Source: Candidatus Woesearchaeota archaeon
GTDB lineage: Archaea > Nanobdellota > Nanobdellia > Woesearchaeales > GW2011-AR9
Length of the DNA stretch: 64,000 nucleotides
Direction: 5' to 3'
NCBI GenBank assembly: GCA_945861715.1
Contig: CAMAVK010000001.1
Span: forward strand, 1-64,000
Shown here: piece by piece, positions 10,084 to 56,960 of the stretch
Layout: each line of letters opens with the position of its first letter
How positions within the stretch are numbered: position 1 is the stretch's first letter
Notes under the pieces: model-generated
Databases searched by the model: none
The model's input: the letters and a program-made list of their open reading frames with translations, nothing else
What the model was told of the DNA's origin: nothing
Made by a program: the position numbers and the translations under genes

Positions 10084-10255
10084 ATTTCTCCCTTAAATAA
10101 TCTAATGGTATTAGTATAGGAGTACAGAACGCATTTCTTTATTAATTCTATCCCAGATAATTCAACACTCAGAAGAACAGATAACACCCATTTCTATTTT
10201 ATTTTTTCTTCCTGATAACCCATAATTATTTAAAACACCCAAAATAAAACAGAGC

Positions 10256-11284
10256 ATGCAAAAAACCGCATTCGTTACCGGCGCAGCCGGACAATTAGGC
10301 TCCGCATTAATAGAAAAGCTCCTAAGCGAAGGCTATCAAATCACAGCCTTCATTCTCCCTCACCACGATGACACCCTACTCAAATCATACGAAGGAAAAG
10401 GAGTAGAAAAAATAATCAAAGCAGATATCACAAATCCAGTTTCCCTACTCAATCAAATACCACAAGGAGCCATCGTCTTCCACTGTTATTCATTAAGCCC
10501 CGGAGCAAATCAAACCGAAGAAATATATCAACAAAGTAATGTGCAAGGAACCAAAAACGTCCTAGAAGCAGCAAAAAAAGCCAACGCATCCAAATTCATC
10601 TATACCAGTTCCTGCTCAGTCATCGGTCCAAAAGCAACACCAACCCATTCAATCTCAGAAACCGACGTAGCCGATCCAAACGAGCCGTATGGAAGATCCA
10701 AACACGACGCAGAAACAGAAATAAACAAATGGCATCAAGAAACAAAAATTCCGACAGCCATCTGTCGAATATTTCCTCTCTACGGACCAAGAGCACACAT
10801 CAACTCAACACCTGTTCGCCTCATGAAACTAATCCAAAAGAAACGCTTCTATATGATTGGTGACGGAAACAACACCTATGAATTCTGTTTCTCACGAAAC
10901 GCAGCAGATGGTGTAGCCCTAGCAGCGCAAAAAATAACCAACGGCATCCAAACCTACAACACATCCGAGCCAATCAGGCGTTCCTACAACGAAGTCATCT
11001 TCGAAATAGCCAAACACGTCAACCCACAAGTCAAAATCGTACGAATCCCCCCAACACTAGCAAAAATAATTGGCCATGGGGGAGAATTCGCGTTCAAAGT
11101 ATTTAGAAAACGAACAATAACAAGATTAAGAACTGTTGAAGGACTTCTTGGCGGCTGGACATCAAATTGCACAAAAGAAGTTACTGAGCTGGGCTACACT
11201 CAAAAATACACACTCGAACAAGGCGTCGAAGAACTAGTGTCTTGGGCAAAAAATAAAGGACTTCTCGATACAATTGAAAAGTAA
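10256..11284 (+). CDS. NAD-dependent epimerase/dehydratase (extended SDR)
   Basis: The N-terminal Rossmann motif TGAAGQLG (residues 8-15) binds NAD(P), and the catalytic pair is Tyr145 and Lys149 in PYGRSKHDAE, with the preceding Ser in YTSSCSV near 118-121. The 342-residue length is that of the extended SDRs that act on nucleotide sugars or related steroid/flavonoid-like substrates. The neighbours include a DUF354 protein, a toroid-fold glycan enzyme and several glycosyltransferases, so a role in making an activated sugar is the best guess. A TATA box at about 10226-10235 fits leaderless initiation at ATG 10256. Confidence 0.83.
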   Translation: MQKTAFVTGAAGQLGSALIEKLLSEGYQITAFILPHHDDTLLKSYEGKGVEKIIKADITNPVSLLNQIPQGAIVFHCYSLSPGANQTEEIYQQSNVQGTKNVLEAAKKANASKFIYTSSCSVIGPKATPTHSISETDVADPNEPYGRSKHDAETEINKWHQETKIPTAICRIFPLYGPRAHINSTPVRLMKLIQKKRFYMIGDGNNTYEFCFSRNAADGVALAAQKITNGIQTYNTSEPIRRSYNEVIFEIAKHVNPQVKIVRIPPTLAKIIGHGGEFAFKVFRKRTITRLRTVEGLLGGWTSNCTKEVTELGYTQKYTLEQGVEELVSWAKNKGLLDTIEK

Positions 11285-41460: not shown

Positions 41461-42198
41461 TCACCTATTAGATTGCGTAAGAGCTCCAAATACACCAAGA
41501 ACAGCCCCTACAACCCCCACAAAAATAAGTCCCGCTTTGGATTGAGTTGCAACCAGCAGTGACACCACAATAACAACAAAAATAGACCCAACATACTGTG
41601 CTCTATCACCAAAGAAAACAGAAAGACCATCAAGTTGAACGAGAGGAAGCAAAGCAAAGAACGCCATTGAAATATTAAGCCACATTCCTTTTTCAAATAA
41701 ATATGAACCTGGAAACAAATACAACAACACACCAAACAAAAATGTAAGTATCAAATTACCCATAACACCAGCAAGCGCAATCTGGGCATTTTGACCATAT
41801 GAAAAACCATATCGAAACTCACCCAGACGCGATCGACTCATAAAAATAACCGACACACAACCAATCAAAACAACAGGTAACTTACCCATTGTAATAAACG
41901 CGGTAAGTAACATAATAACAAGCCCAACCCACCACACCTTATACTCTGCTAAATAGCCATAAGACAACGCCTTATGTTTTTGTAGCCCAAACCGAAACAA
42001 AAAACTAAGAAATGCAACCAGAGTCAACAAAAAGAAGTGAACAAGCCCGATAGAAACACTAAAAATTGTTCCACCCCAATCACGAAACGAAAAAATAAAA
42101 CCAGAGACAAGCGCGCAAACACACAACCACACAATCTCCTCGCGACTAAACGTAAGAAATTGTGTAACACGTTCACGCATCTCCTTCTTTGAAACCAT
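41461..42198 (-). CDS. M50-like (site-2 protease fold) protein lacking the HExxH site
   Basis: The 245-residue protein has the helix pattern of archaeal M50 proteases, including the segment LSYGYLAEYKVWWVGL, which matches the position just after HExxHK in active relatives, and NISMAFFALLPLVQLDGLSVFF, the usual second metal region with LDG at about 189-191. The HELAHK position reads FGLQKHK (residues 70-76), so the first His and the Glu are gone. It is therefore probably catalytically dead. The start at 42198 is set by a TATA box (TATATATA, 42221-42229) 25 bases upstream; a longer ORF to 42240 is unlikely. It precedes a small membrane protein in the operon. Confidence 0.75.
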   Translation of the reverse strand: MVSKKEMRERVTQFLTFSREEIVWLCVCALVSGFIFSFRDWGGTIFSVSIGLVHFFLLTLVAFLSFLFRFGLQKHKALSYGYLAEYKVWWVGLVIMLLTAFITMGKLPVVLIGCVSVIFMSRSRLGEFRYGFSYGQNAQIALAGVMGNLILTFLFGVLLYLFPGSYLFEKGMWLNISMAFFALLPLVQLDGLSVFFGDRAQYVGSIFVVIVVSLLVATQSKAGLIFVGVVGAVLGVFGALTQSNR

Positions 42199-42401
42199 AG
42201 TATCGAAATAGAGAAAGGAGTATATATATCTTTTTTCCACAGCGACTCTGTAGAAATGCTATTTAATGGACATCAACCAAAATAATCAGTCAAAATGGTT
42301 CATAAAGTCAAAAAAAGAGTGAATAAAAAAAAGAATCCCACAAAAATATAAAAAAATAAAAAATTTGAAGGAAGAAAAAAACTAATAATAGCTAAAAGCT
42401 A

Positions 42402-43652
42402 TTAATAGTAAGTCTTCTCTTCGTCGTCGTCTTTCTTGAGTCGGCTAAATCCGATAACAAGTCCGATGATAACCAAAAGCACAATTAAAACAATAAGAGC
42501 AATCTCAAGACCATTCTTAAGATCCATACCGTTATTTTGTGTACCAGTTACTGTAGCTTTTAAAGCAACAGTTTCTAGCATATCAGCTCCGCTTTTAACG
42601 GAAACTGAAACAATGTGGTCACCAAGAGCTGCGTTAGCGTTTGGAGTAACTTCAACATATACAACTTTACTTTGTCCAGGTGAAAGAACAACAAGGTTCT
42701 CAGACACAGCAACAGTTGCAAAATCGCCAGTTACAGCTTCAACAGCATAAGCACGGCTTGTTCGACCATCGTTAGTTAAAGCAACACCGTACACTGCCTT
42801 AGCTCCAATAGCAACAGTTTGACTCTCTGGACCAACAGCAAGAACTAACTTACCGGTGGTTTCAACAGCAAATTGCTCATTAGCAACAACATTCAAAGTA
42901 GTAGTCTTAATTACAGTTTGATCAAAGCCATCATAATCAACAGTTACCTTAACTTGATACTCACCAGCTGCTGCAGTAGCAGGAATTGGTAAGAACATCT
43001 CAGGAACGTCTTCATACTCAACATTGTTATCATCTGTAGCAACAAGATCTACAAATTCAGTTGCACTAATTCCTAATTGTGGAACGGATACAGTAACTTT
43101 AACGTCTTTCTCGTCTTTGTCTCCCCAGTTAGCAAGAAGCACAGAAACAAGAATGGATCGTCCAGCTTTAATACTGTTTCCAGGTGATAAAGTAACATCT
43201 TGAACTTCAACACTGTGTCGCTTAGGTTCAACTGATAGTACAATATTCTTCTCCTCAGCTGCACCATTTTGGTCAAGCATTCGAAGTCGAAGTGCATATT
43301 CAGCTTTTTCAAGGCGAGCAGGTAAAGCTACTTGCATATTAACATACTTAGTGTTACCAGCTTGAACATCAATTAAGTCTACAGAGTCATAAAGACCCTC
43401 TCGATCATTTCCTTCATATCCGGAAATCTTTGCATCAACCTCAACATCGCGTGCACCGTTGTCAGCAACAAGTCCTACACGAATGTCAAGAGTTTGACCT
43501 TCTTCTACAGCAAGAACTTCGCCGTTATCCACATAATCCCCGTTGATTCGTAATGATCCCCAGGAAAGCTCATTAGCGTTATCGTTAACCGCGCTAACAA
43601 GTGACATAGCAAGCACGCCCATAATGAACAATGCCAAAATACTTGATTTCAT
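42402..43652 (-). CDS. Secreted, C-terminally anchored protein with Ig-like/CARDB-like domains
   Basis: A signal peptide (SSILALFIMGVLAMSLVSA) is followed by about 350 residues of beta-rich repeats of the COG1361/COG1470 type, for example VSVLLANWGDKDEKDVKVTV and YVEVTPNANAALGDHIVSVSV. A final helix (about residues 384-405) and charged tail (FSRLKKDDDEEKTYY) anchor it. It has a GGAGGAAG leader and a TATA box (GTTTATATAAT, about 43715-43725). A similar domain ends the neighbouring TSP3 protein, so both probably form part of the cell envelope. It may be an S-layer-like or adhesion protein; its ligands are unknown. Confidence 0.85.
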   Translation of the reverse strand: MKSSILALFIMGVLAMSLVSAVNDNANELSWGSLRINGDYVDNGEVLAVEEGQTLDIRVGLVADNGARDVEVDAKISGYEGNDREGLYDSVDLIDVQAGNTKYVNMQVALPARLEKAEYALRLRMLDQNGAAEEKNIVLSVEPKRHSVEVQDVTLSPGNSIKAGRSILVSVLLANWGDKDEKDVKVTVSVPQLGISATEFVDLVATDDNNVEYEDVPEMFLPIPATAAAGEYQVKVTVDYDGFDQTVIKTTTLNVVANEQFAVETTGKLVLAVGPESQTVAIGAKAVYGVALTNDGRTSRAYAVEAVTGDFATVAVSENLVVLSPGQSKVVYVEVTPNANAALGDHIVSVSVKSGADMLETVALKATVTGTQNNGMDLKNGLEIALIVLIVLLVIIGLVIGFSRLKKDDDEEKTYY

Positions 43653-43802
43653 TTTTTTCTTCCTCCAAATTAGTTAATTATTGGATTTTCTTTTAGATTC
43701 AATTGAGAGGTATTATATAAACCTTTCGCGGCATTTAGCATTTGAAAGTGACTACAATATACCCCTATTGTTGAATAGTGATTTTTGAATGACTAGATTG
43801 AA

Positions 43803-43824
43803 ATATATTGCCAGGGCAATATAT
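43803..43824. repeat. Perfect inverted repeat, 10-base arms
   Basis: ATATATTGCC-AG-GGCAATATAT lies in the 395-base gap between the TSP3 gene and the Ig-like gene. With the next two inverted repeats it makes an unusually structured gap. It may be a regulator site for the 42402-43652 gene, whose TATA box lies about 80 bases further on. Confidence 0.6.
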
Positions 43825-43825
43825 C

Positions 43826-43865
43826 AGAAAGCAAGAACAATTGATACGATTATTTCTTGCTTTCT
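43826..43865. repeat. Perfect inverted repeat, 12-base arms with 16-base loop
   Basis: AGAAAGCAAGAA ... TTCTTGCTTTCT forms a 12-base-pair stem with a 16-base loop. It begins one base after the previous inverted repeat. The pair may form a stem-loop RNA or a binding region; transcription across it is unknown. Confidence 0.6.
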
Positions 43866-43947
43866 TTATATCTCTATTTCAATCATCGTCGTGAAAGTGA
43901 ACAATTTAAGTTTGACAAAACTCAAATCATTCAACTTTCGGTGAAAC

Positions 43948-43971
43948 TAAGTGTTCATTTCAGAACACTTA
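43948..43971. repeat. Perfect inverted repeat, 9-base arms with 6-base loop
   Basis: TAAGTGTTC-ATTTCA-GAACACTTA can fold as a hairpin with a 6-base loop. It is 25-50 bases from the TSP3 terminator and 77 bases after its stop codon (reading the minus strand). Confidence 0.55.
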
Positions 43972-43994
43972 ACAAGGCACTCGGAACTCGACAA

Positions 43995-44016
43995 AAGCCA
44001 AAAAAAAAGGAGGCTT
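43995..44016 (-). terminator. Poly-T terminator with short hairpin after the TSP3 gene
   Basis: On the minus strand the sequence reads AAGCCTCC, nine T and GGCTT, so a T9 tract sits within a short inverted repeat. It follows the TSP3 stop codon by about 32 bases, a normal archaeal terminator position. Confidence 0.5.
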
Positions 44017-44047
44017 CACAGCCCCAAACAAACAACAAGGTTGAAAT

Positions 44048-45931
44048 TTACTCAACACTAAATTGTCGGTACGCAACTTCATGATATCGATTTGTTTGGA
44101 ACATAAATTGAACCATGTAGTCCCCGGCAGGAGCGTCGTATGGAAGATCAACTGGAACATTCCAACTATAATCACCGCCTCGTCTCAAATCAAATTCACC
44201 AGATGCAACTCGAACTCCAAGGTCAGGGATCATAACAATAAGACGAGCATCGTTAAATCTCTCATTCCCATTATTATGAACTGCAATAGCCATAGATACA
44301 GCCTCACCAGCACCAGCTACTTCACTAATGTGAATAGTTTGGAACTGTACATTCTCATAAGCAATATTGTTATCATGATCATCACAAACATCACCAACAA
44401 AGTCCAAATCAGCATCTTCTTGACGTGGATTAAACACATACACGCAATTGTCCTCTGAATCAATCACACCATCATTATCAGCATCAACATCAACTGGTGG
44501 TGGATTAACTGCGTCACACACATTCCCAATACCATCATGATCTGCATCTTCTTGACCAGGATTAGCAACAAGTGGGCAGTTATCACGAGCATCAGGAATA
44601 CCATCATTGTCAGTATCTACAGGGGGCCGTGGATGACAAATAGGTAAATTTTCAAATCCAGGCCAGCTACAAAGTGGACCATCAGGGAAAGGAGGATCAA
44701 TTGGACCAATATCACCAGGACCAGGGAAATTGAAATCACACACATTTCCTCGACCATCATGATCTACATCTACTTGAGTAGGATTAGCAGCACGAGGGCA
44801 ATTATCACACGCATTACCAACCCCATCGGAATCAGTATCAACTTGATCTGCGTTCGCTACACGTACACAATTGTCATCAGCATCTACTACTCCATCCCCA
44901 TCTTCATCATCAACTGGAACATCAGGTTGACAAATAGCTAGATCCTCAAAACCAGGCCAACTACAAAGTGGACCATCAGGAAAAGGAGGATCAATTGGAC
45001 CAATATCACCAGGGAACCCAGGAGGTAACACGATCCGATCACACACATTACCAAGACCATCATGATCAAAATCAAGTTGATTGGAGTTATCAACACGAGG
45101 GCAATTATCACACGCATTTCCAACACCATCGGAATCAGTATCAACTTGATCTGCATTTGCAACACGAACGCAGTTATCACGAGCATCAGGGATACCATCA
45201 TCATCGGTATCAACTTCAGGATGACAAATTGCAAGATTTTCAAACCCAGGCCAACCACAAAGTGGACCATCAGGATAAGCAGGTTCAATAGGAGTAAAAT
45301 CGCCTAAACCAGGAATTCCGGGTTCGTTTCCTACAATAATAACACGATCACAAACATTTCCTCTACCATCGGAATCAGAATCTGCTTGATTAGCATTATC
45401 GGCACGAACACAATTATCACACGCATCCCCTACACCATCGCCATCAGTATCAAATTGAAGTCCATTAGGAACAGCAGGGCAATTGTCAGTTACATCATCA
45501 ACACCATCTCTATCAGCATCAGCTGGAGCTGGCGGAACAACCACACCACGAACAATCATACGAATAGGTGCAAAATCAACTGAACCTCCATTTTGAACGT
45601 GAACTTTAACAACAAATTCACCATCCAAACCATTGGTACCAATTGCTCGAACAACTTCTTGAACAGGACGTTGCGCATTTGATACAACCGCAAATCGGCC
45701 AACAGCATTGCGAACAAAATCACCATCAGCAGTATAAATATCAACATAAAAATCAAAATTTTCATGACTAGTCACAAGAACACTAAGTTCCGGACGATCC
45801 CCAGCATCAACAGTAATCGTATTACGTCCATTCTCCCATTGAACTCTATTAATTGCAATATCAGCAAGAGCCAGTGGAGCAATAACAAGCAATACCATTG
45901 CCAGTACACTAAACATTACTTTTGTATTCAT
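44048..45931 (-). CDS. Secreted protein with thrombospondin type-3 (calcium-binding) repeats
   Basis: After a signal peptide (TKVMFSVLAMVLLVIAPLALA) and a beta-rich N-terminal domain of about 110 residues, the protein consists of many TSP3-type units such as DTDGDGVGDACDNC, each with Asp ligands for calcium. Three long repeats insert the conserved segment PDGPLCSWPGFE. The last 100 residues form a CARDB/Ig-like domain related to the neighbour at 42402. No C-terminal anchor is seen, so it may attach through partners. ATG 45931, preceded by GAGG, is used (ATG 45955 is upstream in frame). A rigid calcium-dependent surface or adhesin role is inferred. No N-terminal lipobox is present. Confidence 0.85.
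   Translation of the reverse strand: MNTKVMFSVLAMVLLVIAPLALADIAINRVQWENGRNTITVDAGDRPELSVLVTSHENFDFYVDIYTADGDFVRNAVGRFAVVSNAQRPVQEVVRAIGTNGLDGEFVVKVHVQNGGSVDFAPIRMIVRGVVVPPAPADADRDGVDDVTDNCPAVPNGLQFDTDGDGVGDACDNCVRADNANQADSDSDGRGNVCDRVIIVGNEPGIPGLGDFTPIEPAYPDGPLCGWPGFENLAICHPEVDTDDDGIPDARDNCVRVANADQVDTDSDGVGNACDNCPRVDNSNQLDFDHDGLGNVCDRIVLPPGFPGDIGPIDPPFPDGPLCSWPGFEDLAICQPDVPVDDEDGDGVVDADDNCVRVANADQVDTDSDGVGNACDNCPRAANPTQVDVDHDGRGNVCDFNFPGPGDIGPIDPPFPDGPLCSWPGFENLPICHPRPPVDTDNDGIPDARDNCPLVANPGQEDADHDGIGNVCDAVNPPPVDVDADNDGVIDSEDNCVYVFNPRQEDADLDFVGDVCDDHDNNIAYENVQFQTIHISEVAGAGEAVSMAIAVHNNGNERFNDARLIVMIPDLGVRVASGEFDLRRGGDYSWNVPVDLPYDAPAGDYMVQFMFQTNRYHEVAYRQFSVE
44658..45440. repeat. 294-base tandem coding repeats in the TSP3 gene
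   Basis: The same segment, encoding the PDGPLC-WPGFE region, begins at 44658, 44952 and 45246, exactly 294 bases (98 residues) apart. The first two units are highly similar at the DNA level; the third diverges after about 60 bases. This points to recent duplication inside the gene. Confidence 0.75.
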
Positions 45932-46106
45932 GGTTATTCCTCTAATCGTAAACATCTAACACATCCAAAGCAACCAAGTTGCATAAACTCGACCAAGAAC
46001 ACCCAAACCCTCTTTGCACTCAATAAACGCGAAACCAAAGCCCGCGCATAAAATCATAAACTCACACACTCAAAACAAAAAAAATTAACCAACAGTAAAT
46101 CGACAA

Positions 46107-47702
46107 CTAAAAGCGATACGTTGCTCCAAGTAAACCGTATGGAGTGACACTACCTTCTTCAGTAAGTCCAGCTTGATTTACACCTGCTTGAATAAAGACA
46201 GGACCCAAATCAAGTTGAAGACCACCAAATCCATATCCAGTAACTTTTGTTTGATATTCAGGATTACCTTCTGTACCTCGTGGTGCAGTACCATCAACAG
46301 TAGTAACAGTTGATGGAGATGTATTTTTGGAACTCAAAATACCATTTACTCCACCCTCAAGTGAAAGAACAACTGATTCAGTCATATTTCCAAGAATTGG
46401 AACACGTAATGACGCTCGAGCTCCCAAAAATGGATGTTCAACTTTTCCTACTGTAGTTCGACTTGACCAACCATCGCCTGCATCCACAGTAACAGACTCA
46501 CTCTTGGATTCAGCACCAAATACACCATACGCTGCAACATTTAACCCAAGATGGCGTACAAAAAATGATCCATACCCACCAACTTCAGTACTATTTGCAA
46601 ATGGATTCCATTGACCAGTTACTCCGCCAACCAATCCTTGTTCATAACCAGCAAATACACCAAGTGCAAAAGAATCCAAGCCAGCAAGATTTTTCTTCAC
46701 ACGAGCATTATACTCGGATTCAACAGCATCACGACTAATTTGTAATTCTAAACATTTCTCAGATAAATCTTGTAATTGAAGAACACTAGTACTATACATA
46801 GTATCATATTTAGCATTAATTGCATCTTTATCTGCAGGAGCCGCAGCAAGTTCTTTAGTTCGTTGTTCAGAAAGAACACAAACAATGTTTGCCATTGCAT
46901 CGTTTTTAGTTTTATTATCACCACAAACAACCTTTTCTGCATCGCCAAACGCCTTTCGACGAGCTTCATCATCAGCAAGTGCATCAACAACAACTGGAAG
47001 AGTTCCAGTATAAACAGGAGACGAAGCAGGTGCGGGAGCACTCTCGACAGCAGCAGCAACAGGAGCATCTCTAGCAGCACTAAGAGTATTTTCTAAATCC
47101 CCAACTCGACCATTAAGACCATTAATTCTTTCATCTTGAGCAGCATCAACTGCTGTTTGATCAGCCTTATATTGATCAAAAGTAGTAGTCAACACGAACC
47201 GTTGATTATCCATACCCGCCAACTTAGCAGCAAGTACATCAAGTCGAGCTTGAGCATTAGGATCTTCAGATGTAAAAGAAGTCATACTAACCCGATAATC
47301 AATAACATCAATCAAAGTTAATGGTTTCTGAGCATCATTATCATAGAAATGAGGACTCTTAGTAGCAGGATTCAAATCTAAAAAATTCCACATGACGCCA
47401 GTATAATTCGGTCCTTTCTTCACCGTTCGCTTAGGAAATCGCACTTTCAACCGAGCATCAATTTGTGCATCCAAATCGCAACCTTCAAAAATATCACATA
47501 CTTGATTTCGGTACACAAGATTACCATTACGTGGAGCAGGTACAGCACTATGATTTGCAGCAGGCAAAGTAGGAGCATTACCTAATGCAGGAGCACTACC
47601 AACAACCGGACCATCGGCTGGCGCACCAGCATATCCCAAAACCGGTGCAGCAGCAACCGCGGTAAAAGCCACATTTCGTACAAAATTATTAATTGATGCC
47701 AT
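46107..47702 (-). CDS. Secreted coiled-coil protein with a beta-barrel-like C-terminus
   Basis: A likely signal region (MASINNFVRNVAFTAVAAAPVLGYA) is followed by an Ala/Pro-rich stretch, a helical coiled-coil region (about residues 150-345) and a C-terminal part (345-531) of alternating hydrophobic strands and Gly-rich turns, such as FALGVFAGYEQGLVGGVTG, YGSFFVRHLGLNVAAYGVF, YGFGGLQLDLGPVFIQAGV. The last residue is Phe (GATYRF), as in bacterial outer-membrane barrels. I do not recognise a family. Archaea with only one membrane have no obvious place for such a barrel, so the fold call is an inference. It has a TATA box with a hairpin and a GGAGGAAA leader, so it is probably well expressed. Confidence 0.72.
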   Translation of the reverse strand: MASINNFVRNVAFTAVAAAPVLGYAGAPADGPVVGSAPALGNAPTLPAANHSAVPAPRNGNLVYRNQVCDIFEGCDLDAQIDARLKVRFPKRTVKKGPNYTGVMWNFLDLNPATKSPHFYDNDAQKPLTLIDVIDYRVSMTSFTSEDPNAQARLDVLAAKLAGMDNQRFVLTTTFDQYKADQTAVDAAQDERINGLNGRVGDLENTLSAARDAPVAAAVESAPAPASSPVYTGTLPVVVDALADDEARRKAFGDAEKVVCGDNKTKNDAMANIVCVLSEQRTKELAAAPADKDAINAKYDTMYSTSVLQLQDLSEKCLELQISRDAVESEYNARVKKNLAGLDSFALGVFAGYEQGLVGGVTGQWNPFANSTEVGGYGSFFVRHLGLNVAAYGVFGAESKSESVTVDAGDGWSSRTTVGKVEHPFLGARASLRVPILGNMTESVVLSLEGGVNGILSSKNTSPSTVTTVDGTAPRGTEGNPEYQTKVTGYGFGGLQLDLGPVFIQAGVNQAGLTEEGSVTPYGLLGATYRF

Positions 47703-47727
47703 TGTTTAATTTCCTCCTATAGATCAA

Positions 47728-47741
47728 ACCCCATAAGGGGT
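47728..47741. promoter_or_regulatory. Hairpin in the leader of the 46107-47702 gene
   Basis: ACCCC-ATAA-GGGGT is a stable short inverted repeat 26 bases before the ATG at 47702, between the transcription start and the GGAGG at 47712-47716. It may affect translation. Confidence 0.4.
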
Positions 47742-47764
47742 ATTACGATGATAAATTGATTACT

Positions 47765-47795
47765 ACTGTTGAAAAACAACAGTCACTATATAAAC
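47765..47795 (-). promoter_or_regulatory. TATA box with adjacent perfect hairpin
   Basis: GTTTATATAGTG (47784-47795) is a good minus-strand TATA box. Immediately after it, ACTGTTG-AAAAA-CAACAGT (47765-47783) forms a perfect inverted repeat across the predicted transcription start. A regulator site is likely. Confidence 0.5.
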
Positions 47796-47813
47796 TTTGT
47801 GGGATAATACTAC

Positions 47814-49925
47814 TCAAAAAGAGTAAAACTTGTAATTGAACGGTGCAACAGTATCAATATTCCAATTTGAATTTGGTTTGGATCGAGACGCAACTAACTC
47901 AACAAACTTATGTAACAAAGTAGAATCCTGTGCACCATCTCTCCATTTCAAATCACCAACAAAAGCCCGGTATAGCACGCCACTTGATTCTCTAAAAGTA
48001 TTACCAAACGCTTGAAATGCTAACTCGCCTTTCGCTCCCATAGTGCAACGTGGATCCTGCGAACCACATGTCTGAGCAATCCATCGACCTAGAAGCGAAT
48101 CAACGGCCGCAATATTCTCTTCGCTAGGATGACCCTTCAATTTCTCTTTCATAAAATCATATCGAGCATGAGCACTCATTGCCACATCACGTTCAACTCG
48201 AATACTATCACGCTCACGAATAACACTATCACGTGCAGTATAACAATTCTGTAACAACGCATCTTCACCACTCAAACCTAACCCCAATGAAGCTGCACTC
48301 CCAGGAGTCAAAGGAACAACACGTGAAGCAATCAATGTTGCTTGAGACTGCAAATCAGCAACATGAGCAACACATTGTTCATAATCAATCTTGCTTATAA
48401 CTAAATCACGAGCAATTAAATCATAATCACCACGTACCACACCTAAATCAGTACGAATCAAATCACGCGCAGAGCCACACGTGCTTAAATCATCTCGTAA
48501 AGACGCAACTGTTCCATTCAATGTAATAATATTTCCATTCATAACATCTAATTTATTCTTATACTTATCACGTTCAGATCGAGTAGCAATAACAATACCC
48601 TGAGATGCACCTAACTGAGTATTATATCCATCAATGGCCTTTTGTCGTAAACCAAGAAGTGCATCCTTTGCAAAAATCACAGCTCGAAGTGATGCAACTT
48701 CTCCACGTAAATCTGTATTGCCACTACGTTTTAAGTCACATTGCTCAAGACTTTTTCGCACTGCAATCAAATCATCTTGACACTGAGCATTCTGAGCAAT
48801 AACATCGGATTCTCGATTTGGTTGATTTGCCGCTACAATACTCCGAGCAGTTTGTAAATCAGTATCACAAGTATGTTTAGCATTCAACAAAACTGAGTAC
48901 TCATTTCGTAGTCGAGTCAAATGGCTACTAAGTTGAGAAATCTCTACCTGAGAAACCCCATGTTCAATATACATTGCACGTAGCTGGGTATCACAATCAA
49001 TATAATTATCACGACAAACCAAAGACTCAGCATTAATAATAGAAAATTCAGAAGTAACCCCTGAAAGACTACTCTCACTCCGAGAAAGCAACGTATTGCA
49101 ATCCCTACTCTTCCCTTCAAACTCATCAACAGAAGTCCGCAAACCAGCAATAACCAAATCCTTAGCAGCATCCCGTTTCTTACAATCAACCAACGTTTCT
49201 GCGACATCAATACTAACAACAACAGGCTCCGTTGAAACCGGAGCATCAGTATGCCAATATTTAACTCCCAACACCGCAGACCCACCCGCAATAACCGCAC
49301 CAAGAAGAGCCCACGTTGCGCCATATTGCCATTGCCTCGATCTGTTAGCCACTTGAGAAGAACCTATAGTATTCAAACCAACAACCATCGTGTCGCTTCT
49401 ACTCTCGCAACGCATCACATCAAACACTGTCGCATCAAGTGAAGACAAGCGAACTTTTTGTCGATTATCACAACGCGTAGCAAATACTGAACTATCACGT
49501 TGGTAAAAAACACCACTATGTAAAAATATCGCATTCTCTAAAATTTCAGATGCATGATCCACTTTGCGTGACATAACTTTAAATTGATCAGAATTCGCAC
49601 GATAATCACGAATATGTTCGTAACTCTTAACCAACTCCAAAAAACTTTGACCCTCAATCTTACCATCAAATACAAAGCAATTTCTTTTATGATAAATCAC
49701 TTCTTCTACAGTTAAGGTATCTTGTGAAACATCCCCGCTATGAAGCACCATCAAGCGCCTCTCACCAGCCCACTCATACCACATCCCAGGCTCCAAATTA
49801 TTAAACCCATCAATTGGTATCCTCTTAAACCGAGTTTCACTAGCTAAATCTTCAAGAGACAAAAAAGTTTGCCCGGACGCAGTCGCCTCAAGCCGGCTCA
49901 TTAATGAAGTCATATCAGTTGTCAT
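47814..49925 (-). CDS. Large single-pass protein with coiled coil, unknown family
   Basis: The 703-residue protein has an N-terminal part (1-195) with two repeats of a beta-rich module (LEPGMWYEWAGERRLMVLH; AIFLHSGVFYQRDSSVFATR), one membrane helix at about 201-223, and a long, heptad-rich helical region (about 245-600) with regularly placed single Cys residues (DCKKRD, RDCNTLL, YIDCDTQL, TCDTDL, QCDLKR). The C-terminal 90 residues end with NYKFYSF. I do not recognise the family. It follows the 1016-residue protein by three bases, so both are cotranscribed, and the module repeats are shared. A cell-envelope, scaffold-like role is inferred. Confidence 0.75.
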   Translation of the reverse strand: MTTDMTSLMSRLEATASGQTFLSLEDLASETRFKRIPIDGFNNLEPGMWYEWAGERRLMVLHSGDVSQDTLTVEEVIYHKRNCFVFDGKIEGQSFLELVKSYEHIRDYRANSDQFKVMSRKVDHASEILENAIFLHSGVFYQRDSSVFATRCDNRQKVRLSSLDATVFDVMRCESRSDTMVVGLNTIGSSQVANRSRQWQYGATWALLGAVIAGGSAVLGVKYWHTDAPVSTEPVVVSIDVAETLVDCKKRDAAKDLVIAGLRTSVDEFEGKSRDCNTLLSRSESSLSGVTSEFSIINAESLVCRDNYIDCDTQLRAMYIEHGVSQVEISQLSSHLTRLRNEYSVLLNAKHTCDTDLQTARSIVAANQPNRESDVIAQNAQCQDDLIAVRKSLEQCDLKRSGNTDLRGEVASLRAVIFAKDALLGLRQKAIDGYNTQLGASQGIVIATRSERDKYKNKLDVMNGNIITLNGTVASLRDDLSTCGSARDLIRTDLGVVRGDYDLIARDLVISKIDYEQCVAHVADLQSQATLIASRVVPLTPGSAASLGLGLSGEDALLQNCYTARDSVIRERDSIRVERDVAMSAHARYDFMKEKLKGHPSEENIAAVDSLLGRWIAQTCGSQDPRCTMGAKGELAFQAFGNTFRESSGVLYRAFVGDLKWRDGAQDSTLLHKFVELVASRSKPNSNWNIDTVAPFNYKFYSF

Positions 49926-49928
49926 AGA

Positions 49929-52900
49929 TTACCTTTTAAGAATAAAATACGAATGTGTTTTCTGATTCACATCAGTTGCATAACCACTCTTATCTGCAAC
50001 ACACCAAGTCCCTTTTTCACGAGCAACAAATCCAGACTTTATCAATTGGTCGCCTCCAGCCGCAACAAATAGTTTCCCCAAAGCCTCAGAACAATTTGCC
50101 GTATTTGCAACCCAATATTTCATAGTACTAGCGTCACTTCCAGAACACTCAGCAACAGTTCCATCAACTACACATTGAGTTTTAACATACGAAACAATAT
50201 CCCCACGTACAGAGGTAGGAATTGAATCTTGAGCAACAACTTTAGCAATATCCAAATTACCAGCAGCAACATCAATAGAGTTCTGGGCAATTCTCAAATA
50301 TGCAATAACTTGTCTTGTCTTCGCCTCAACAGGAGCATATTTTGTAGAAACAAAAGTATCCCATTCTGGTTTAAACGCATCAAAATCAGCAACTAATTTT
50401 CGAGCTTCCTGGGCCTGAGTGGTATACGTGGCAGCACTTGCAGCAATTTTATCACTCGCATCCGCCCGAGCAGTCTGAGCAGCAACTACAGCCTTCTCTA
50501 AAGACACAACAGCGTCGCGAGAAGCAGCAAATTGTGAATTAAAATACAATGCTGTCCCACCAATACCTAATGCAAGCGCAGCAGCTCCAACACCACCAAG
50601 AACTGCCATACGCTTCACACGACCATTATGACCCGCAACATCAAGCGCAATCGCAAGTGCATCCTTATGTCGCTTTTCCATCTCTAAACGATAGTCTGCA
50701 ACTGCTTGCGGAATTTCACTACCCTCCAAACTCTTCTCTCCACTCCCATTATTACGATAAAACGGAGCTGGGTTCCAAGGTAAATCATCATCACTACCTT
50801 TTCGATAAAACGCCCCAACGGGAATCTCATTAATATTGGTAACTTCTTTAATTTGACATCTTCCAGCAAGTACTAGATCAAGCCCCGTAACATCATTAAC
50901 AAGTATCAAATTACGATCGCTAGTCTGAACATAATAATACACCAACTTATCAGCTGCAGCAATAGGTAATACAGGAACATTTCTTGAAGGCGGCACGACC
51001 CCCGGTCTATGAACAACATCAAATGCAGGAGCTTGACGTGCACGTGGAGATGGTACAGAAACTGGCCTTGTAGCTTGAGGTGGTGCGCTCACGGTATGAA
51101 CCACTTGAACTGGAGGTACAGGTGCGGGAGCCATAGGAATCTCAGGTAACACTGCCAGAGGTGGCAAACTCGCAACCTGGGAAACTGTAACAGTTCTTCC
51201 ATGGGGATCAACTTGACCCATCTCCCCAGTTATTACCTCGTCATCATGAACTATCAGAACTTCCATTGTCGTTGCACCCGGAGTTAACAAAACAGAAACA
51301 TGTTGAGCATCTGCAACCTGTGCAGACGGTATCAAAGGAAGAGGAGGAGGGACTACACGCGCTCCAGTTCCAGCTGTTGCTACCACAGGAGGTATTGCAC
51401 CAACCCCCCCCGCTGTCTTTTTAGTATCATTATTTTTATCATTTGCCATTGTTAAATCTCCAGGAGTATTCATAACCCCTCGCTTCTCATCTATATCCTC
51501 TAATGCACCAAGCGATGCCCGCCTCATATCAGCAGGTGTACGATCTCTATCCTCAAGACCAAAAAAACCATCCCGCACACGCACTCGAACAATGCCATTC
51601 TCATCCTCAGAAATACCTGTAAAGCCCGGTGTAGACGCAAGATTTCTCGCCAACGTAGTAGTTGGTAACACATCAGCAGCACTAAGTTCCATCGTCATTT
51701 TAACGAGATCAACTTTCTCAAAAATGGTATAAGATACAACCTCACCCTTCGGGGTCCGAGAAGAATGAGTCGTTTTTTGCAAAACGACCTCCGTTGAACC
51801 GGGCACGTGAACAAAGGCCCCTTCAGGAATCGCAGGATCTAAAATCCAAGATGCAACCTCTGACTCCCATTTCTCAGGTTCTAAACCAACATAATGAGTA
51901 CCATAACTAACCGGATTACCTTGCTGAAGATATGCAACAAGCGCAGGAAAATCAAATCCCTTAAGACCAGCAATGAGATGATAATTATGCGTAGACTCCA
52001 CCTCCCACTCATACTTTTTTTTCGTTGCCGCAACTTCAAAAAATGGAACAGGTTGTCCATGCCTAAGCAACGGAGTAAATATATCACCAATGTTGGCATC
52101 ACGAACACGAGCATGACGATAACTTCCTCCCCTCTCATTTAAAATATAACCTTGACGTTCTTGACTCGTAAGATGTCGAACATAATCATCACTAAACGAT
52201 TCAGAACTGTGAGTGATAACACCCGAAGGTGTTGAATCATGCTTCAAACGATGTTCCAAGGACCATTGAGCAGCTACCATATCAATCAACGCAAGCGCCG
52301 ATGCATCACTTAAAGAAAGTATACCATGGGACTCAAGGCAAAGCTGTCCATGTTCAACACTACCAACTTTATACAAAACAGAATTTCCTTCAATTTGTTG
52401 AGAAGGAACAAAGAAAGCACCTTCAACTAAATCTATAGGCGTACCTTTTCTCCAAGAAACTTGATCACCGCTAAGCACAGGAACTCGAAATAATTCAGCA
52501 GCGGACTCTAAAATAATTGCATGCGCATCAACTGGAAGTCTTTTTTTATGTCCAGCCACCTCTTGAATACTAACTGGTAAACCAAACAAGTGTAACGGAT
52601 CTTCCCTTTGTGTTTGTTGGCCATCTAAACTCTCACTTAAATCTAACACTTGGACCATCGAATCAGTTGAAAAAGAAAATTCATCCGATGCCGGTGGCAG
52701 TGGATCAGTAATCCCAAACCGCTCAACCAAAATAGTACCCACAAGATCAATGAGAGTAAGTCCAAACGGGCTATCATCAACACTCGCAAGATTACCATCA
52801 CGAATGGTAAGATGAGAGTTATTCATGTACTCTCGAACCACATGACCAAGATCTGATTCATCAACTCGTTGAGTGGGTAATATAAGCGCCTTATTCGCAA

Positions 52901-52979
52901 CATAATACTCTCTTAATCTATGAACTAATAATCCAAAAACTTGATTGTTCACTAAATGAGGATTTGTAGGATTTGCCAT
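49929..52979 (-). CDS. Very large protein with repeated module, Pro-rich linker and one membrane helix
   Basis: The 1016-residue protein carries at least four copies of a module marked by a turn such as LVEGAFFVP, GDIFTPLL, IPEGAFVHVP or IPVGAFYRKG, followed by a hydrophobic strand and a helix. A Pro/Val-rich linker (about 535-690) follows, then a membrane helix (about 790-813), an Ala-rich coiled coil and a C-terminal domain with four Cys that may form two disulfides. The family is unknown to me. The module is also present in the 703-residue neighbour, to which it is tightly coupled (3-base gap). The layout suggests an inner module-rich region and an outer coiled-coil region, or the reverse. 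Confidence 0.75.
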   Translation of the reverse strand: MANPTNPHLVNNQVFGLLVHRLREYYVANKALILPTQRVDESDLGHVVREYMNNSHLTIRDGNLASVDDSPFGLTLIDLVGTILVERFGITDPLPPASDEFSFSTDSMVQVLDLSESLDGQQTQREDPLHLFGLPVSIQEVAGHKKRLPVDAHAIILESAAELFRVPVLSGDQVSWRKGTPIDLVEGAFFVPSQQIEGNSVLYKVGSVEHGQLCLESHGILSLSDASALALIDMVAAQWSLEHRLKHDSTPSGVITHSSESFSDDYVRHLTSQERQGYILNERGGSYRHARVRDANIGDIFTPLLRHGQPVPFFEVAATKKKYEWEVESTHNYHLIAGLKGFDFPALVAYLQQGNPVSYGTHYVGLEPEKWESEVASWILDPAIPEGAFVHVPGSTEVVLQKTTHSSRTPKGEVVSYTIFEKVDLVKMTMELSAADVLPTTTLARNLASTPGFTGISEDENGIVRVRVRDGFFGLEDRDRTPADMRRASLGALEDIDEKRGVMNTPGDLTMANDKNNDTKKTAGGVGAIPPVVATAGTGARVVPPPLPLIPSAQVADAQHVSVLLTPGATTMEVLIVHDDEVITGEMGQVDPHGRTVTVSQVASLPPLAVLPEIPMAPAPVPPVQVVHTVSAPPQATRPVSVPSPRARQAPAFDVVHRPGVVPPSRNVPVLPIAAADKLVYYYVQTSDRNLILVNDVTGLDLVLAGRCQIKEVTNINEIPVGAFYRKGSDDDLPWNPAPFYRNNGSGEKSLEGSEIPQAVADYRLEMEKRHKDALAIALDVAGHNGRVKRMAVLGGVGAAALALGIGGTALYFNSQFAASRDAVVSLEKAVVAAQTARADASDKIAASAATYTTQAQEARKLVADFDAFKPEWDTFVSTKYAPVEAKTRQVIAYLRIAQNSIDVAAGNLDIAKVVAQDSIPTSVRGDIVSYVKTQCVVDGTVAECSGSDASTMKYWVANTANCSEALGKLFVAAGGDQLIKSGFVAREKGTWCVADKSGYATDVNQKTHSYFILKR

Positions 52980-53232
52980 AGTATAAAATAAACATCACTC
53001 ACCAAAAACAACGTAAAAATATACATCAACAACATGATTCAACGAAACGGCTATCTATGATCATACTAATATTATAATACCATATAACCGTAGATAACTA
53101 TACAAGAACCCCCCAAATTTATAAAGATTATGTAAGAATCGCTACTTTTAAGTAACTAGGTAACCAAAAAAATTCTATAAATGTAACTTCACTATATTAA
53201 AAAAAAGCCTAAAAACAAAACTAACAACAATA

Positions 53233-53721
53233 TCAAACAATAACTTCTCCCCTATGTTGTTTTGGATGATAATTGTGCAACACTCCTTCCTTATATTTCG
53301 CATACCCAATGACCTGCGAATCATATACTACAAACATCATCCTAGGTTCAACACCTAAATCAACATCCATATCTTCACCAATAAAATACTCCTTAACCCG
53401 CTCAGAACCTACATCAAACGTATTCTTCAACTCAACGCCACTCTCACGTGCTAAATTACCTAAAAACTGTGCTCCTTCTTTACTCAACCGAACTTCTTTC
53501 TCTTTCACTTCCCCAACATACAACCCAACCCGATCAATAATCAACTTACGTTCATCCACCTTTTTAAAATCAGTATTAACTAAAAACAACTTCTCTTTCT
53601 CATTTAAATAATAAAGAAGTGTGGTGGGAAAACAAATACCACACTGCTTCAATATGGTGTTATTTATCGTACGAACTTCTACAGCAGATAGCCACCGAAG
53701 AGATTTCATCGAAGATCCCAC
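53233..53721 (-). CDS. PUA-like domain protein (RsmF/NIP7-type C-terminus)
   Basis: The 162-residue protein ends with MMFVVYDSQVIGYAKYKEGVLHNYHPKQHRG, a pattern like the RNA-binding PUA domain at the end of RsmF/NOP2-type methyltransferases or NIP7-like proteins. The N-terminal part (LRWLSAVEVRTINNTILKQCGICFPTT) fits the small domain that precedes PUA in NIP7. The RNA target is unknown. The gene overlaps by one base the stop of the 140-residue neighbour (TAGTG), and starts at GTG 53721; ATG 53709 is the alternative. The combination with an envelope protein is odd and may be due to compaction. Confidence 0.6.
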   Translation of the reverse strand: MGSSMKSLRWLSAVEVRTINNTILKQCGICFPTTLLYYLNEKEKLFLVNTDFKKVDERKLIIDRVGLYVGEVKEKEVRLSKEGAQFLGNLARESGVELKNTFDVGSERVKEYFIGEDMDVDLGVEPRMMFVVYDSQVIGYAKYKEGVLHNYHPKQHRGEVIV

Positions 53722-54143
53722 TACTTCACCTTATACAAAGGAAACAACAACTCTCCTTGATAATACCCATAGGAAACATTGGTTGGAACATATAAAGTGA
53801 CCATGAGACTTTTATTGGTATACGCTGGAATCTCAAACGTATCCGGGCTAACATTAAACCACGATCCCATTGAAATATTTGATGCTACAATTGAGTGACC
53901 CTCAATAGGAAACGAAAAATTATTAGAAATATGAATTTCTCTTGTAAAAGAATTGCCCGGAGCCAAAACACCAAAATGAAGGAGATCAGTATCTAAGTTA
54001 AAACCTTGTTTAGCATCAACAAAAAAATCAAATTTAAGGTGTTGAGTCGTAACTGGGCTTGGCTTTTGAAAAACCCCAAAGATTAAACCTAATCCCAAAA
54101 CAATGGCAATACATAGCATAACTGCAAGAAACAATTTTTTCAT
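53721..54143 (-). CDS. N-anchored protein with Ig-like domain
   Basis: One hydrophobic helix (about residues 4-22) is followed by a beta-sandwich-like domain: FDLLHFGVLAPGNSFTREIHISNNFSFPIEG style strands, FNVSPDTFEIPAYTNKSLMVTLYVP and YGYYQGELLFPL. Three or more N-x-S/T sites are present, so it may be N-glycosylated. The LAPGNSFT-type segment is as in COG1361/CARDB proteins, and the gene is coupled to a PUA-like gene. It is a probable extracellular membrane-anchored protein of unknown function. Confidence 0.75.
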   Translation of the reverse strand: MKKLFLAVMLCIAIVLGLGLIFGVFQKPSPVTTQHLKFDFFVDAKQGFNLDTDLLHFGVLAPGNSFTREIHISNNFSFPIEGHSIVASNISMGSWFNVSPDTFEIPAYTNKSLMVTLYVPTNVSYGYYQGELLFPLYKVK

Positions 54144-54295
54144 AAGACGTTCAAGTAAACTCTCCTTAAAAAACCTTACGGTTTAAACAACTAGAAATAG
54201 TGAAAAAAAACATCATCGATCACCCAGAACAAAATACAAAAGAAATACAAAAGATAAACATTAAAGAATAAAATATATTAAAATAAAATAAAAAC

Positions 54296-55516
54296 CTAGA
54301 CTTCATCCGAATTGTCCTGTCTTCGCTTAAAAAAGATAAAGAAGAGCAACAATAGCAACATAACGCCCCCACCAACATAATAGTAAGTAGAGTTAGATGA
54401 CGACTCGGCACCATCTAAAGCAGTTACATCACTAACCGGAACAGCCTCCACAACTGCTACTTTTTGAGCAATTACCTTTATAGGAACGCTATACGATGTT
54501 TTCTTCCCTTCATAAGCCAAATCAACATTTAGTTTATAATCACCCAGTGCAACATTATTAGTATCAACATAAACTGTTGATGCCTCCTCAGTAAATAATC
54601 TAACGGAACCCGGTGTCGAACTTAATTTTTTAACCTCAACCCCATCAGGAGTAGTTATTGATCCGGTCATCACATAATTAATAGGGGACGACCAAAAACT
54701 AGCTACTGATATAGACGCAGACGTAATCTTGTTGACTTCAAACTCAGTTGGAGTCATCGATGTTACGTTAATCAACATATCCCCTACTGTAAAACTATAC
54801 GGTGGAACTTTCAACACTTGACCATCCCAACTAATTTCCGGACCAATATCATACGCACCAAATGGAACATCAACACCCGGCATCCACTCCCCGCGCAGAT
54901 CTGCTTTTTGTTGATATCCAAGACCATTCATCGAAGTAAGCGGAATATCAACTGAAAACGCTGGATTACTCTGAGATGTAACATGCAATTTTCCTGATAG
55001 AGATTCAATAACTTCCTTACCAAGATTCTCAACTGTTACTTTATAATACCCATTAACACCATGATTTGCTCGTTTAACCCACTCAAAATCTTTAAATTGT
55101 AAAAATTTATTATCAGACGGAGCAAATAAAATGATACGTCCTCCTATCTGTACTTGAGCACCCATCATCGCAGGTTGACCATACTCTTGTTTTGGTTCTT
55201 CCCCAATAATAACTTCAAGCTCATGTTGTCCAGGACTAAGCGATGCATCATGAGTGAATGTAACTTCAGCAAACCAGTTCCCACGTTCATCAGGATACAC
55301 TTTTTTCTCAGTAACAAATCGAGCAAGATCATTACCCACTTGAATATTAGCAGCACCACGATTATTCAAAATAGAAAATATGAACGTTTGTGGTGAACCC
55401 GGACTATACGTCGCCTCTACTTTTGCAGGAGTAATACCAAGAGCAAACACACAAGGAACAAGAAGAAGTACCAAAAGAATAGGAAATAGGAAAAGTGAGA
55501 TTCGAATACCAGCCAT
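54296..55516 (-). CDS. Secreted, C-terminally anchored Ig-like protein (COG1361-like)
   Basis: The protein of 406 residues has a signal peptide (ISLFLFPILLVLLLVPCVFALG), about 330 residues of beta-sandwich segments (YSPGSPQTFIFSILNNRGAANI, VENLGKEVIESLSGKLHVTS) and a C-terminal anchor (YYVGGGVMLLLLLFFIFFKRR) with a short charged tail. It is preceded by a GGAGG leader. The layout is like the protein at 42402-43652, with which it may share an envelope function. It may be in an operon with the downstream gene 53721-54143, though the 150-base gap suggests a separate promoter. Confidence 0.83.
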   Translation of the reverse strand: MAGIRISLFLFPILLVLLLVPCVFALGITPAKVEATYSPGSPQTFIFSILNNRGAANIQVGNDLARFVTEKKVYPDERGNWFAEVTFTHDASLSPGQHELEVIIGEEPKQEYGQPAMMGAQVQIGGRIILFAPSDNKFLQFKDFEWVKRANHGVNGYYKVTVENLGKEVIESLSGKLHVTSQSNPAFSVDIPLTSMNGLGYQQKADLRGEWMPGVDVPFGAYDIGPEISWDGQVLKVPPYSFTVGDMLINVTSMTPTEFEVNKITSASISVASFWSSPINYVMTGSITTPDGVEVKKLSSTPGSVRLFTEEASTVYVDTNNVALGDYKLNVDLAYEGKKTSYSVPIKVIAQKVAVVEAVPVSDVTALDGAESSSNSTYYYVGGGVMLLLLLFFIFFKRRQDNSDEV

Positions 55517-55579
55517 AAAGATCCTCCAAAACTAAAAATCACAATAAAAATCGAAAAGAAAAAAAGAAAAAATGTAAAC

Positions 55580-56308
55580 TTATTGTGCTGTTGCGTAATA
55601 AGTTATGGTGAATTGCTTTGCACCTTGATCTGCATCCTTAGGGATTTGTAAGATAAAGGTGGTGTTCAACTCATCGTTGCTATCATCATACTCCATACGC
55701 GAGCAAAGACTTACGTTTGTTGTATGCGTAATGTTTGCAAGGTTGGTATATGATGAATTTAATCCCTGAGTACAAGTACTTGACTCATCATTAACTGCTT
55801 TAATTTGAATCAAAGCGTTAGCAGCTTGTGAAGGGCAGTTAGCCGAACCACAAAGAATTGAAGTTGCGTTAAGTGTAGTTACACCAGCAGTACTTGAAGC
55901 AGTGATTTGACCTTTAACATTAATAACAGTTGTTCCGTTATTAGCAAATCGATGCGAGAATCTATTTCTGGATTGGTTATCAGTACCTGAAGTATTAACC
56001 CAACATGAAGTGGTTGTTGCTACTGATGATTCTAAATTTGCAGTATCAATCTTGGAAAAACCTGTGCTACATGCGGTTGGGTAGTACCCTGCATATAAAC
56101 TAATTGATGATACGTTCATAACCAAAGCTGCTGTACCTGAAACTGTAATGGATGCGGTACCTGTTCCTTCTGTTGCTGCACCAGTAAGCATTGCATATCT
56201 GCCGCCCATAGTGTTTAATTTTCCTACGCTAACAACTGTGCCTACTACAGTCACAACAAGTGCGATTGCAAGCAATGCAACAATTGTTTTGTTTGAAACA
56301 TCTGCCAT
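55580..56308 (-). CDS. DVSNK-type N-anchored secreted protein with many glycosylation sites
   Basis: The 242-residue protein begins MADVSNKTIVALLAIALVVTVVGTVV, a short polar start and a helix that anchors it or acts as a signal. The exported part is Ser/Thr/Asn-rich, with about nine N-x-S/T sites (NVSS, NTSG, NQSR, NGTT, NATS, NSSY, NITH, NVSL, NTTF) and six Cys. This is typical of a surface-exposed, glycosylated archaeal protein; a pilin-like identity is possible as the start resembles a class III signal only loosely. Its neighbour at 56380 begins with the same DVSNK element. No named family is known to me. Confidence 0.75.
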   Translation of the reverse strand: MADVSNKTIVALLAIALVVTVVGTVVSVGKLNTMGGRYAMLTGAATEGTGTASITVSGTAALVMNVSSISLYAGYYPTACSTGFSKIDTANLESSVATTTSCWVNTSGTDNQSRNRFSHRFANNGTTVINVKGQITASSTAGVTTLNATSILCGSANCPSQAANALIQIKAVNDESSTCTQGLNSSYTNLANITHTTNVSLCSRMEYDDSNDELNTTFILQIPKDADQGAKQFTITYYATAQ

Positions 56309-56379
56309 TGTATATTACCTCTTTTTTAATTGGGATATATTACCCCACTCACTTTTTTTTACTTTTTTCACTAGTTTAC

Positions 56380-56643
56380 TTATTGGGGTCTTGTAACCGC
56401 AAAACTTACCTGTCCTGCTTCACTATCAGTTTGATGCTCACGCAATGCTGGATTTTCCATAACGGTAAATTCAACCTGCCCTGTAGCTGCGGAAAATCGA
56501 CCTGGGTCAGCTTTATCAAGCGACCGCATATATACTCCTAAACTAACTACACTTACCAGTACCACGAGAACAAGAACTACTACTATAGCTTTGTTAGATA
56601 CATCCGATGTAGCGCTAGAAGCTGTCTTTTTTGACTTTGCCAT
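56380..56643 (-). CDS. Small DVSNK-type anchored protein
   Basis: The 87-residue protein has a Lys/Ser-rich start, then SDVSNKAIVVVLVLVVLVSVVSLG, the same DVSNK-plus-helix element as the next gene, and an exported 45-residue tail (GQVEFTVMENPALREHQ). It is the first gene of this pair and has a strong leader (GAGGAGGAG adjacent to the ATG) and TATA box (56695-56705). It may be cotranscribed with the 242-residue protein across the 71-base gap and may form a complex with it. Confidence 0.75.
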   Translation of the reverse strand: MAKSKKTASSATSDVSNKAIVVVLVLVVLVSVVSLGVYMRSLDKADPGRFSAATGQVEFTVMENPALREHQTDSEAGQVSFAVTRPQ

Positions 56644-56694
56644 CTTCTCCTCCTCTTTTAGTTAGGTTTTTACTAGTGCAGATATCGTCTGGGG

Positions 56695-56705
56695 ATTTAT
56701 ATACC
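56695..56705 (-). promoter_or_regulatory. TATA box for the DVSNK gene pair
   Basis: GGTATATAAAT on the minus strand precedes a leader of about 25-30 bases and a GAGGAGGAG ribosome-binding site at 56646-56654. The rest of the 317-base gap (56644-56960) contains AT-rich sequence and I see no gene in it. Confidence 0.55.
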
Positions 56706-56960
56706 TTTTGGTTTTAGAACTATGTTCTATATTACCATTTCAGCAATCAAAAGATACATCACCTAAAAATATAATTGCATTTAACAAGATACCTAAGTTA
56801 AGTTTAACGACGAATAAAAAAGAAAAATAGCATAACTCCTAAAATATATAGAGTAATGGTTAAATACACTCCAAGATAAAAAAATTATTCAAACGATGAA
56901 AAATGGATTATGATGTTGCAAGAAAGTCTGACAAAAAACATTCAATAAAGTAGAAAAAAC

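Follow-up and report, generated by a model that had tools for sequence, protein, structure and literature searches.

Three consecutive genes of a Candidatus Woesearchaeota archaeon, encoding the proteins P0001, P0002 and P0003 (Table 1), form the inner, rapidly evolving portion of a conserved cell-surface locus of Woesearchaeota, as judged from its gene order, its divergence and the joint absence of its members. The genes lie in a 64,000-nucleotide stretch (the window) of a 568 kb contig, in a genome of 1.30 Mb that is 98% complete; archaeal IF5B- and Trm1-like genes, identified from their sequences, are found in the same window. Our best full explanation, to which we give a probability of roughly 0.45, is that the products would form a stalk and barrel complex that serves as a hypervariable contact or tether apparatus, with the barrel entering a membrane.

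Table 1. Locus features in the window, with the residues and evidence for each part.
Feature	Coordinates	Strand	Evidence
P0001, 531 aa, predicted secreted: two Cys in the N-terminal region, then a coiled-coil stalk and a predicted beta-barrel at the C-terminus	46107..47702	-	
P0001 residues 148-341, predicted helical/coiled-coil stalk	46680..47261	-	AF2 helices; heptad score 2/300 shuffles
P0001 residues 345-531, predicted transmembrane-type beta-barrel	46110..46670	-	AF2 strands and VIA
P0001 C-terminal Tyr-Arg-Phe (YRF), Aro-Xaa-Phe, beta-signal-like	46110..46118	-	Sequence; family pattern
P0002, 703 aa: N-domain (predicted cytosolic), single membrane helix, long Cys-containing coiled coil (predicted extracellular), C-terminal domain	47814..49925	-	
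P0002 membrane helix, residues 203-221	49263..49319	-	
P0002 coiled coil, residues 240-590	48156..49208	-	z 6.0, 0/300 shuffles
P0003, 1016 aa: large N-part (predicted cytosolic), single membrane helix, then a short helical stalk and a C-terminal domain containing Cys	49929..52979	-	
P0003 membrane helix, residues 793-811	50547..50603	-	
TSP3/Ig surface protein, conserved locus member	44048..45955	-	Pfam TSP_3 E 1.8e-36; same position in relatives
S-layer-like Ig protein, C-terminal membrane helix	42402..43652	-	NCBIfam PACE-CTERM 77 bits; 78/78 genomes

The sequence-only reading of the window had described three minus-strand genes in a row, the last two of them coupled, and the coordinates and lengths of the open reading frames agree with this, the separation of P0002 and P0003 being 3 bases. 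All three share one reading frame, the intervals between them being 3 and 111 bases, and there is no sign of read-through. P0001 has its own upstream region, where a TATA-like stretch can be read, and it begins with a hydrophobic N-terminus, in keeping with the secretion that had been proposed for it. P0002 and P0003 each contain one convincing membrane helix, as expected from the same reading, and since basic residues precede the helix in both proteins, the positive-inside rule predicts that their N-termini lie inside the cell. The coiled coil that had been ascribed to both is strong in P0002 (heptad score z 6.0, reached by none of 300 shuffles) and weak in P0003 (residues 812-925; matched by 7 of 300), and that of P0001 is modest (2 of 300); a cruder hydrophobic-moment test gave no heptad signal. 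A repeated beta-rich module, also ascribed to the two large proteins, was not recovered, as self-comparison of the trio proteins yielded no significant internal repeats and module profiles from relatives found no match in P0002 or P0003. Among the relatives, by-eye segment profiles of repeated cytosolic modules (from G039, G020 and G002) recovered their own training segments only, and a profile of the third copy missed the first and second copies; because the module profiles failed to find other copies, the claim of a repeated module was dropped.

None of the three proteins had a convincing family in Pfam, NCBIfam or PHROGs, and PDB sequences gave nothing convincing for P0001 and P0003, in agreement with the earlier statement that no family could be recognised. 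P0001 matched no Pfam family at E≤0.1, and hence no OMP family model. Searches of 77 relatives (the named ones mostly Candidatus Woesearchaeota MAGs) returned no match outside the genome itself for P0001, P0002 or P0003 at E≤0.001, whereas core genes are readily found in the same relatives, nine of which have an IF5B of 65-69% identity. For P0003, a search of 370 further genomes of the phylum also gave no match at E≤0.01, nor did one of genome_contigs, and each of the three was without a match in viral_contigs. Profiles gave a similar picture: P0001 showed no sequence or profile link to the barrel proteins of relatives (profile probability ≤1.5%), the profile of the relatives' C-terminal domain had no significant match to P0003 or P0002, and the score of P0003 against the relatives' stalk proteins, 19.5 versus a shuffle maximum of 16.4, is suggestive only.

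The locus was recognised through its neighbourhood. Near IF5B in the relative G011, a membrane coiled-coil gene overlaps the gene of a secreted protein that is coiled coil in part and beta-rich at its end. With this secreted protein as query, open reading frames of about 490-500 residues were found in G039, G042 and G002, together with a split one in G020 (E 3.5e-4 to 0.004). G039 has the window's order, namely an S-layer-like gene, a TSP3/Ig gene, a secreted barrel-type gene, a small and then a large membrane coiled-coil gene, and an amino-acid permease, the last named from its sequence. Co-occurrence was assessed by anchoring on the S-layer-like neighbour, which is present in 78 of 78 genomes, without use of the trio sequences; the DNA upstream of this gene was taken in 60 genomes, and a 33-copy profile led to 42 named loci. 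The order that recurs in the family runs from amino-acid permease through one or more membrane coiled-coil proteins, a secreted protein of 330-590 residues and a TSP3/Ig protein to the S-layer-like protein.

The gene before TSP3 was readable in 31 of the 47 family genomes, and in all 31 it encodes a comparable protein of 330-590 residues with a secreted-looking N-terminus (judged by eye), beside TSP3 in 30; two of these are split reading frames, and that of G002, where the contig ends, was placed by homology. The slot is absent from G001 and G012, which lack the unit, and G030 has a 163-residue reading frame only; the contig edge falls at the slot in eight genomes (G005, G008, G019, G025, G027, G035, G037 and G040), and the slot table leaves out G007, G018, G036, G046 and G033. 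One or more extra genes stand between the permease and the barrel gene in 17 of the 20 loci that carry permease and TSP3 on one contig, the stalk genes being missing from the other three and from G042. In two genomes (L124 and L125) the permease is followed by the S-layer-like gene, with no TSP3, barrel or stalk gene at all. The window's copy has no permease upstream and adjoins an inserted block of Ig genes beside IF5B. Other families of the order show a patchy pattern, with a comparable protein before the Ig gene in some loci only. The slot is thus maintained in the family as one unit at a single locus, which bears out the earlier suggestion that the genes belong together; neither scattered homologues nor strong matches to unrelated known families were found. 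The TSP3 protein (eight TSP_3 stretches in Pfam) and the Ig-like protein that had been placed after the trio are likewise there; the PACE-CTERM putative S-layer model of NCBIfam reaches 77 bits on the latter, under its cut-off of 110.

Several further features of the region were seen. In several family relatives (e.g. L011, L012, L013, L017 and L020), an RsmF-PUA-like protein of 154-158 residues lies directly beside IF5B or near it; the two are set apart in the window by Ig-like and signal-bearing genes spanning about 3 kb (53233-58748). The products of 55580-56308 and 56380-56643 agree over a short N-terminal stretch of DVSNK followed by a hydrophobic helix, which may be pilin-like, and the former has a relative in L015 at 9745-10443. 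A small protein with a lipobox-like N-terminus (e.g. LSGC, IGC, GGC) is encoded between the stalk and barrel genes of L099, L105, L116, L117 and L108. The N-terminal parts of some barrel proteins carry a Cys motif, C..x(F/Y)(D/K)G.G.C ... CPG...CY (L104 4621-6114, where it occurs twice, L102 6279-7778 and L109 4936-6417), which is at best a remnant in P0001. Outside the locus, the window's own genome encodes further TSP3 proteins (C2:114956-127160, C1:64292-64465 and C1:121170-121415), with 20 TSP3 domain matches in all.

The inner genes diverge fast. In five of five same-genus pairs the barrel proteins are 30-61% identical, compared with 65-95% for the S-layer-like (PACE) protein and 44-74% for TSP3, and the first stalk gene is 25-43% identical in the four pairs that have one. 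Since the slot diverges so fast within a genus, sequence search fails between genera. Such divergence would be expected where partners or viruses put a surface under pressure. The barrel proteins of relatives do form linked clusters by sequence (e.g. E 2.7e-44 and 1.1e-12), and a profile link joins clusters I and II (E 3e-4, from a comparison in which several decoys that matched, L035, L041, L043, L067 and L069, by chance belonged to the same family, so that they count as no failure of the control but leave a smaller decoy set). The slot might instead gather unrelated fast-evolving or new secreted genes, so that the window's trio would share nothing with the other members except position. The missing sequence and profile links of the trio are what this idea would predict; we nevertheless hold it to be quite improbable in view of the same order, size, stalk and barrel layout and C-terminal signature, and of slot relatives that link to each other and diverge very fast even within a genus.

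The barrel-like end that had been proposed for P0001 is backed by structural models, with moderate confidence for P0001 itself. An AF2 model of a relative (L106), built with eight aligned relatives, has helices at residues 64-258 followed by strands at 269-455, with a block pLDDT of 62-86 from residue 291 on and a lower value for the first strand. Outer-membrane barrels were its top matches in both Foldseek and VIA-align; it aligned with the OmpA transmembrane domain at Z 12.9 (rmsd 2.7, 131 of 137 residues), with OprF at Z 12.3 and with a designed transmembrane barrel at Z 12.7. The P0001 model, computed from 21 relatives in an alignment of doubtful quality, has strands at residues 345-527 with a block pLDDT of about 52-83 (mean pLDDT 57). 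Foldseek returned no match for it at E≤0.001, the best being NalP at 0.0022, and VIA aligned it with Legionella porin I (Z 12.3, rmsd 3.8, 173 aligned) and the designed barrel TMB10 (Z 11.6, rmsd 1.9, 115 aligned). In the models, then, the fold is that of a closed transmembrane beta-barrel, and the C-terminus of P0001 is predicted to be an eight-to-ten-stranded barrel of the bacterial outer-membrane type, a point that the sequence-only reading did not contain.

The C-termini of many of the family proteins also resemble those of outer-membrane proteins. A C-terminal Phe is found in 15 of the 31 family proteins versus 28 of 484 background reading frames (p 6e-10), and among these Phe-ending proteins an alternating pattern is seen in 14 of 15 versus 15 of 28 (p 1.4e-4); both p-values are overstated, because the statistic was computed after the ends had been noticed, the background comprises all reading frames of at least 200 residues in the analysed stretches, secreted or otherwise, and the genomes are related. 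On average, positions -1, -3, -5, -7 and -9 of the 15 are hydrophobic and positions -2, -4 and -6 are not. An Aro-x-Phe end occurs in 8 of 31 family proteins versus 4 of 484 in the background, and the end of P0001 fits a C-terminal beta-signal; the remaining 16 proteins do not end in Phe, 14 of them having no aromatic end at all. The consensus of the beta-signal is given as Aro-Xaa-Aro in PMC5519381, and PMC3582582 describes recognition of a C-terminal motif by BAM.

Of 371 genomes of the phylum, 12 gave a match at E≤0.001 to the Pfam model OMP_b-brl (PF13505), in one case above the cut-off, and in 14 controls the model matched three diderm bacteria only and no archaeal control. The matched protein ends in Phe in 7 of the 12 loci. 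Five matches (L149, L150, L153, L155 and L157) are 449-492 residues long, four of them with a Phe end, and there are also shorter ones (168-306 residues) and one of 650. An Ig-type surface protein follows the match directly in L149 and L153, and likewise in G350, which was found with a barrel profile. Since OMP_b-brl and barrel-profile matches occur there, the kind of barrel protein described here reaches other families of the class. L149, L153 and L148, all from other families, have a shorter form of the locus with two genes, in which an Ig-type surface protein carrying a C-terminal membrane helix comes directly after a barrel-type protein.

Omp85 (PF01103) was found in none of 60 genomes, the window's own included, with 7 of 14 controls positive, so insertion of the barrel would have no known route. 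This result, together with the S-layer-like and Ig neighbours, would suit a closed barrel that stays outside any bilayer and has a structural or binding task in the S-layer region. An aromatic end is missing from about half of the members, and the beta amphipathicity of the barrel in a hydrophobic-moment test is no higher than that of Ig-like controls, so that amphipathicity does not separate the two. We consider such a soluble or surface-lattice barrel unlikely, since transmembrane barrels are the best structural neighbours of both models (L106 and P0001), the Phe end comes with the alternating pattern, and a Pfam OMP model finds matches in the phylum.

The predicted fold of P0001 is shared with the small bacterial outer-membrane barrels (OmpA, OmpX, Ail, OmpW and OprF), as are the alternating hydrophobic C-terminal strand, often ending in Aro-x-Phe, and the Sec-type N-terminus (judged by eye). 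Unlike them, P0001 is archaeal, has a long coiled-coil stalk before the barrel, has no significant sequence match to any family, and comes from a genome in which no Omp85 was found. The OmpM/SlpA-type outer-membrane connectors of deep-branching bacteria combine a coiled-coil stalk and a barrel in one secreted protein, and P0001 is predicted to have the same two parts, the barrel being C-terminal; it differs in that no SLH domain was found by Pfam in P0001 or 21 relatives, in the lack of a known outer membrane, and in its grouping with membrane stalk proteins and with TSP3 and S-layer-like genes. By analogy with OmpM/SlpA or OmpA-type connectors, a second bilayer of the cell's own might hold the barrel, with the stalk binding P0002 and P0003 in the inner membrane. 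The stalk and C-terminal barrel have the layout of such connectors, and partner proteins with extracellular stalks are encoded in the same locus. We give this tether a small chance, in view of the missing Omp85 and SLH domains, and no image known to us shows an outer bilayer in this group. The tether would be favoured by a DPANN Altiarchaeales protein, mentioned in PMC12228718, that may be distantly related to a bacterial 16-strand porin.

In our preferred reading, that of a contact or tether apparatus, P0003 and P0002 would each cross the membrane once, keeping the N-terminus within the cell and exposing a coiled-coil stalk on the outer side, and P0001 would be secreted, its coiled-coil stalk ending in the outer-membrane-type barrel. 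The stalks would pair outside the cell membrane, and the TSP3/Ig and S-layer-like proteins would fix the complex in the surface layer. The barrel would enter a lipid bilayer that lies beyond the inner membrane of the archaeon; this may be a partner's membrane or an unseen outer membrane of the archaeon itself, or there may be no such bilayer. The whole would serve as a hypervariable contact or tether apparatus. The surface or attachment role that the sequence-only reading had suggested fits this anatomy, the neighbours and the extreme divergence; the host contact that it had added may be part of such a role. Its first judgement, that this is an unrecognised surface system, is right.

A bacterial partner for the barrel is thinkable. 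Vigneron et al. (PMC9723730) propose that some Woesearchaeota attack bacteria, which is no proof for this locus. A narrower idea, to which we attach very little probability, is that the barrel is destined for a Gram-negative partner, whose BAM complex inserts it into the partner's outer membrane as an archaeal stalked anchor; insertion by that BAM would then account for barrels with a beta-signal despite the lack of Omp85. DPANN coiled-coil proteins in type-IV-pilus loci are proposed to act in cell-cell interaction by Hamm et al. 2024 (PMC11291902). The locus resembles these in belonging to a DPANN archaeon and in its coiled-coil proteins, and differs from them in its barrel protein and its TSP3 and S-layer-like neighbours; no pilus ATPase or platform genes were found among the 10 window proteins scanned (41461-56308). 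A search of the open-licence PMC literature found no paper that deals with proteins of the beta-barrel or outer-membrane type in Woesearchaeota.

These results carry the warning that 'orphan' genes can belong to a unit that is conserved even though its sequences are no longer recognisably related. Transmembrane beta-barrels are considered characteristic of diderm bacteria and of the organelles that descend from them, and the strongest surprise would be the predicted outer-membrane-type barrel in archaea without Omp85. If the prediction is true, it would mean an unseen outer envelope in DPANN, or insertion independent of Omp85, or a device for acting on the membrane of a partner. For the question of how Woesearchaeota make contact with their partners, the locus supplies named, testable genes.
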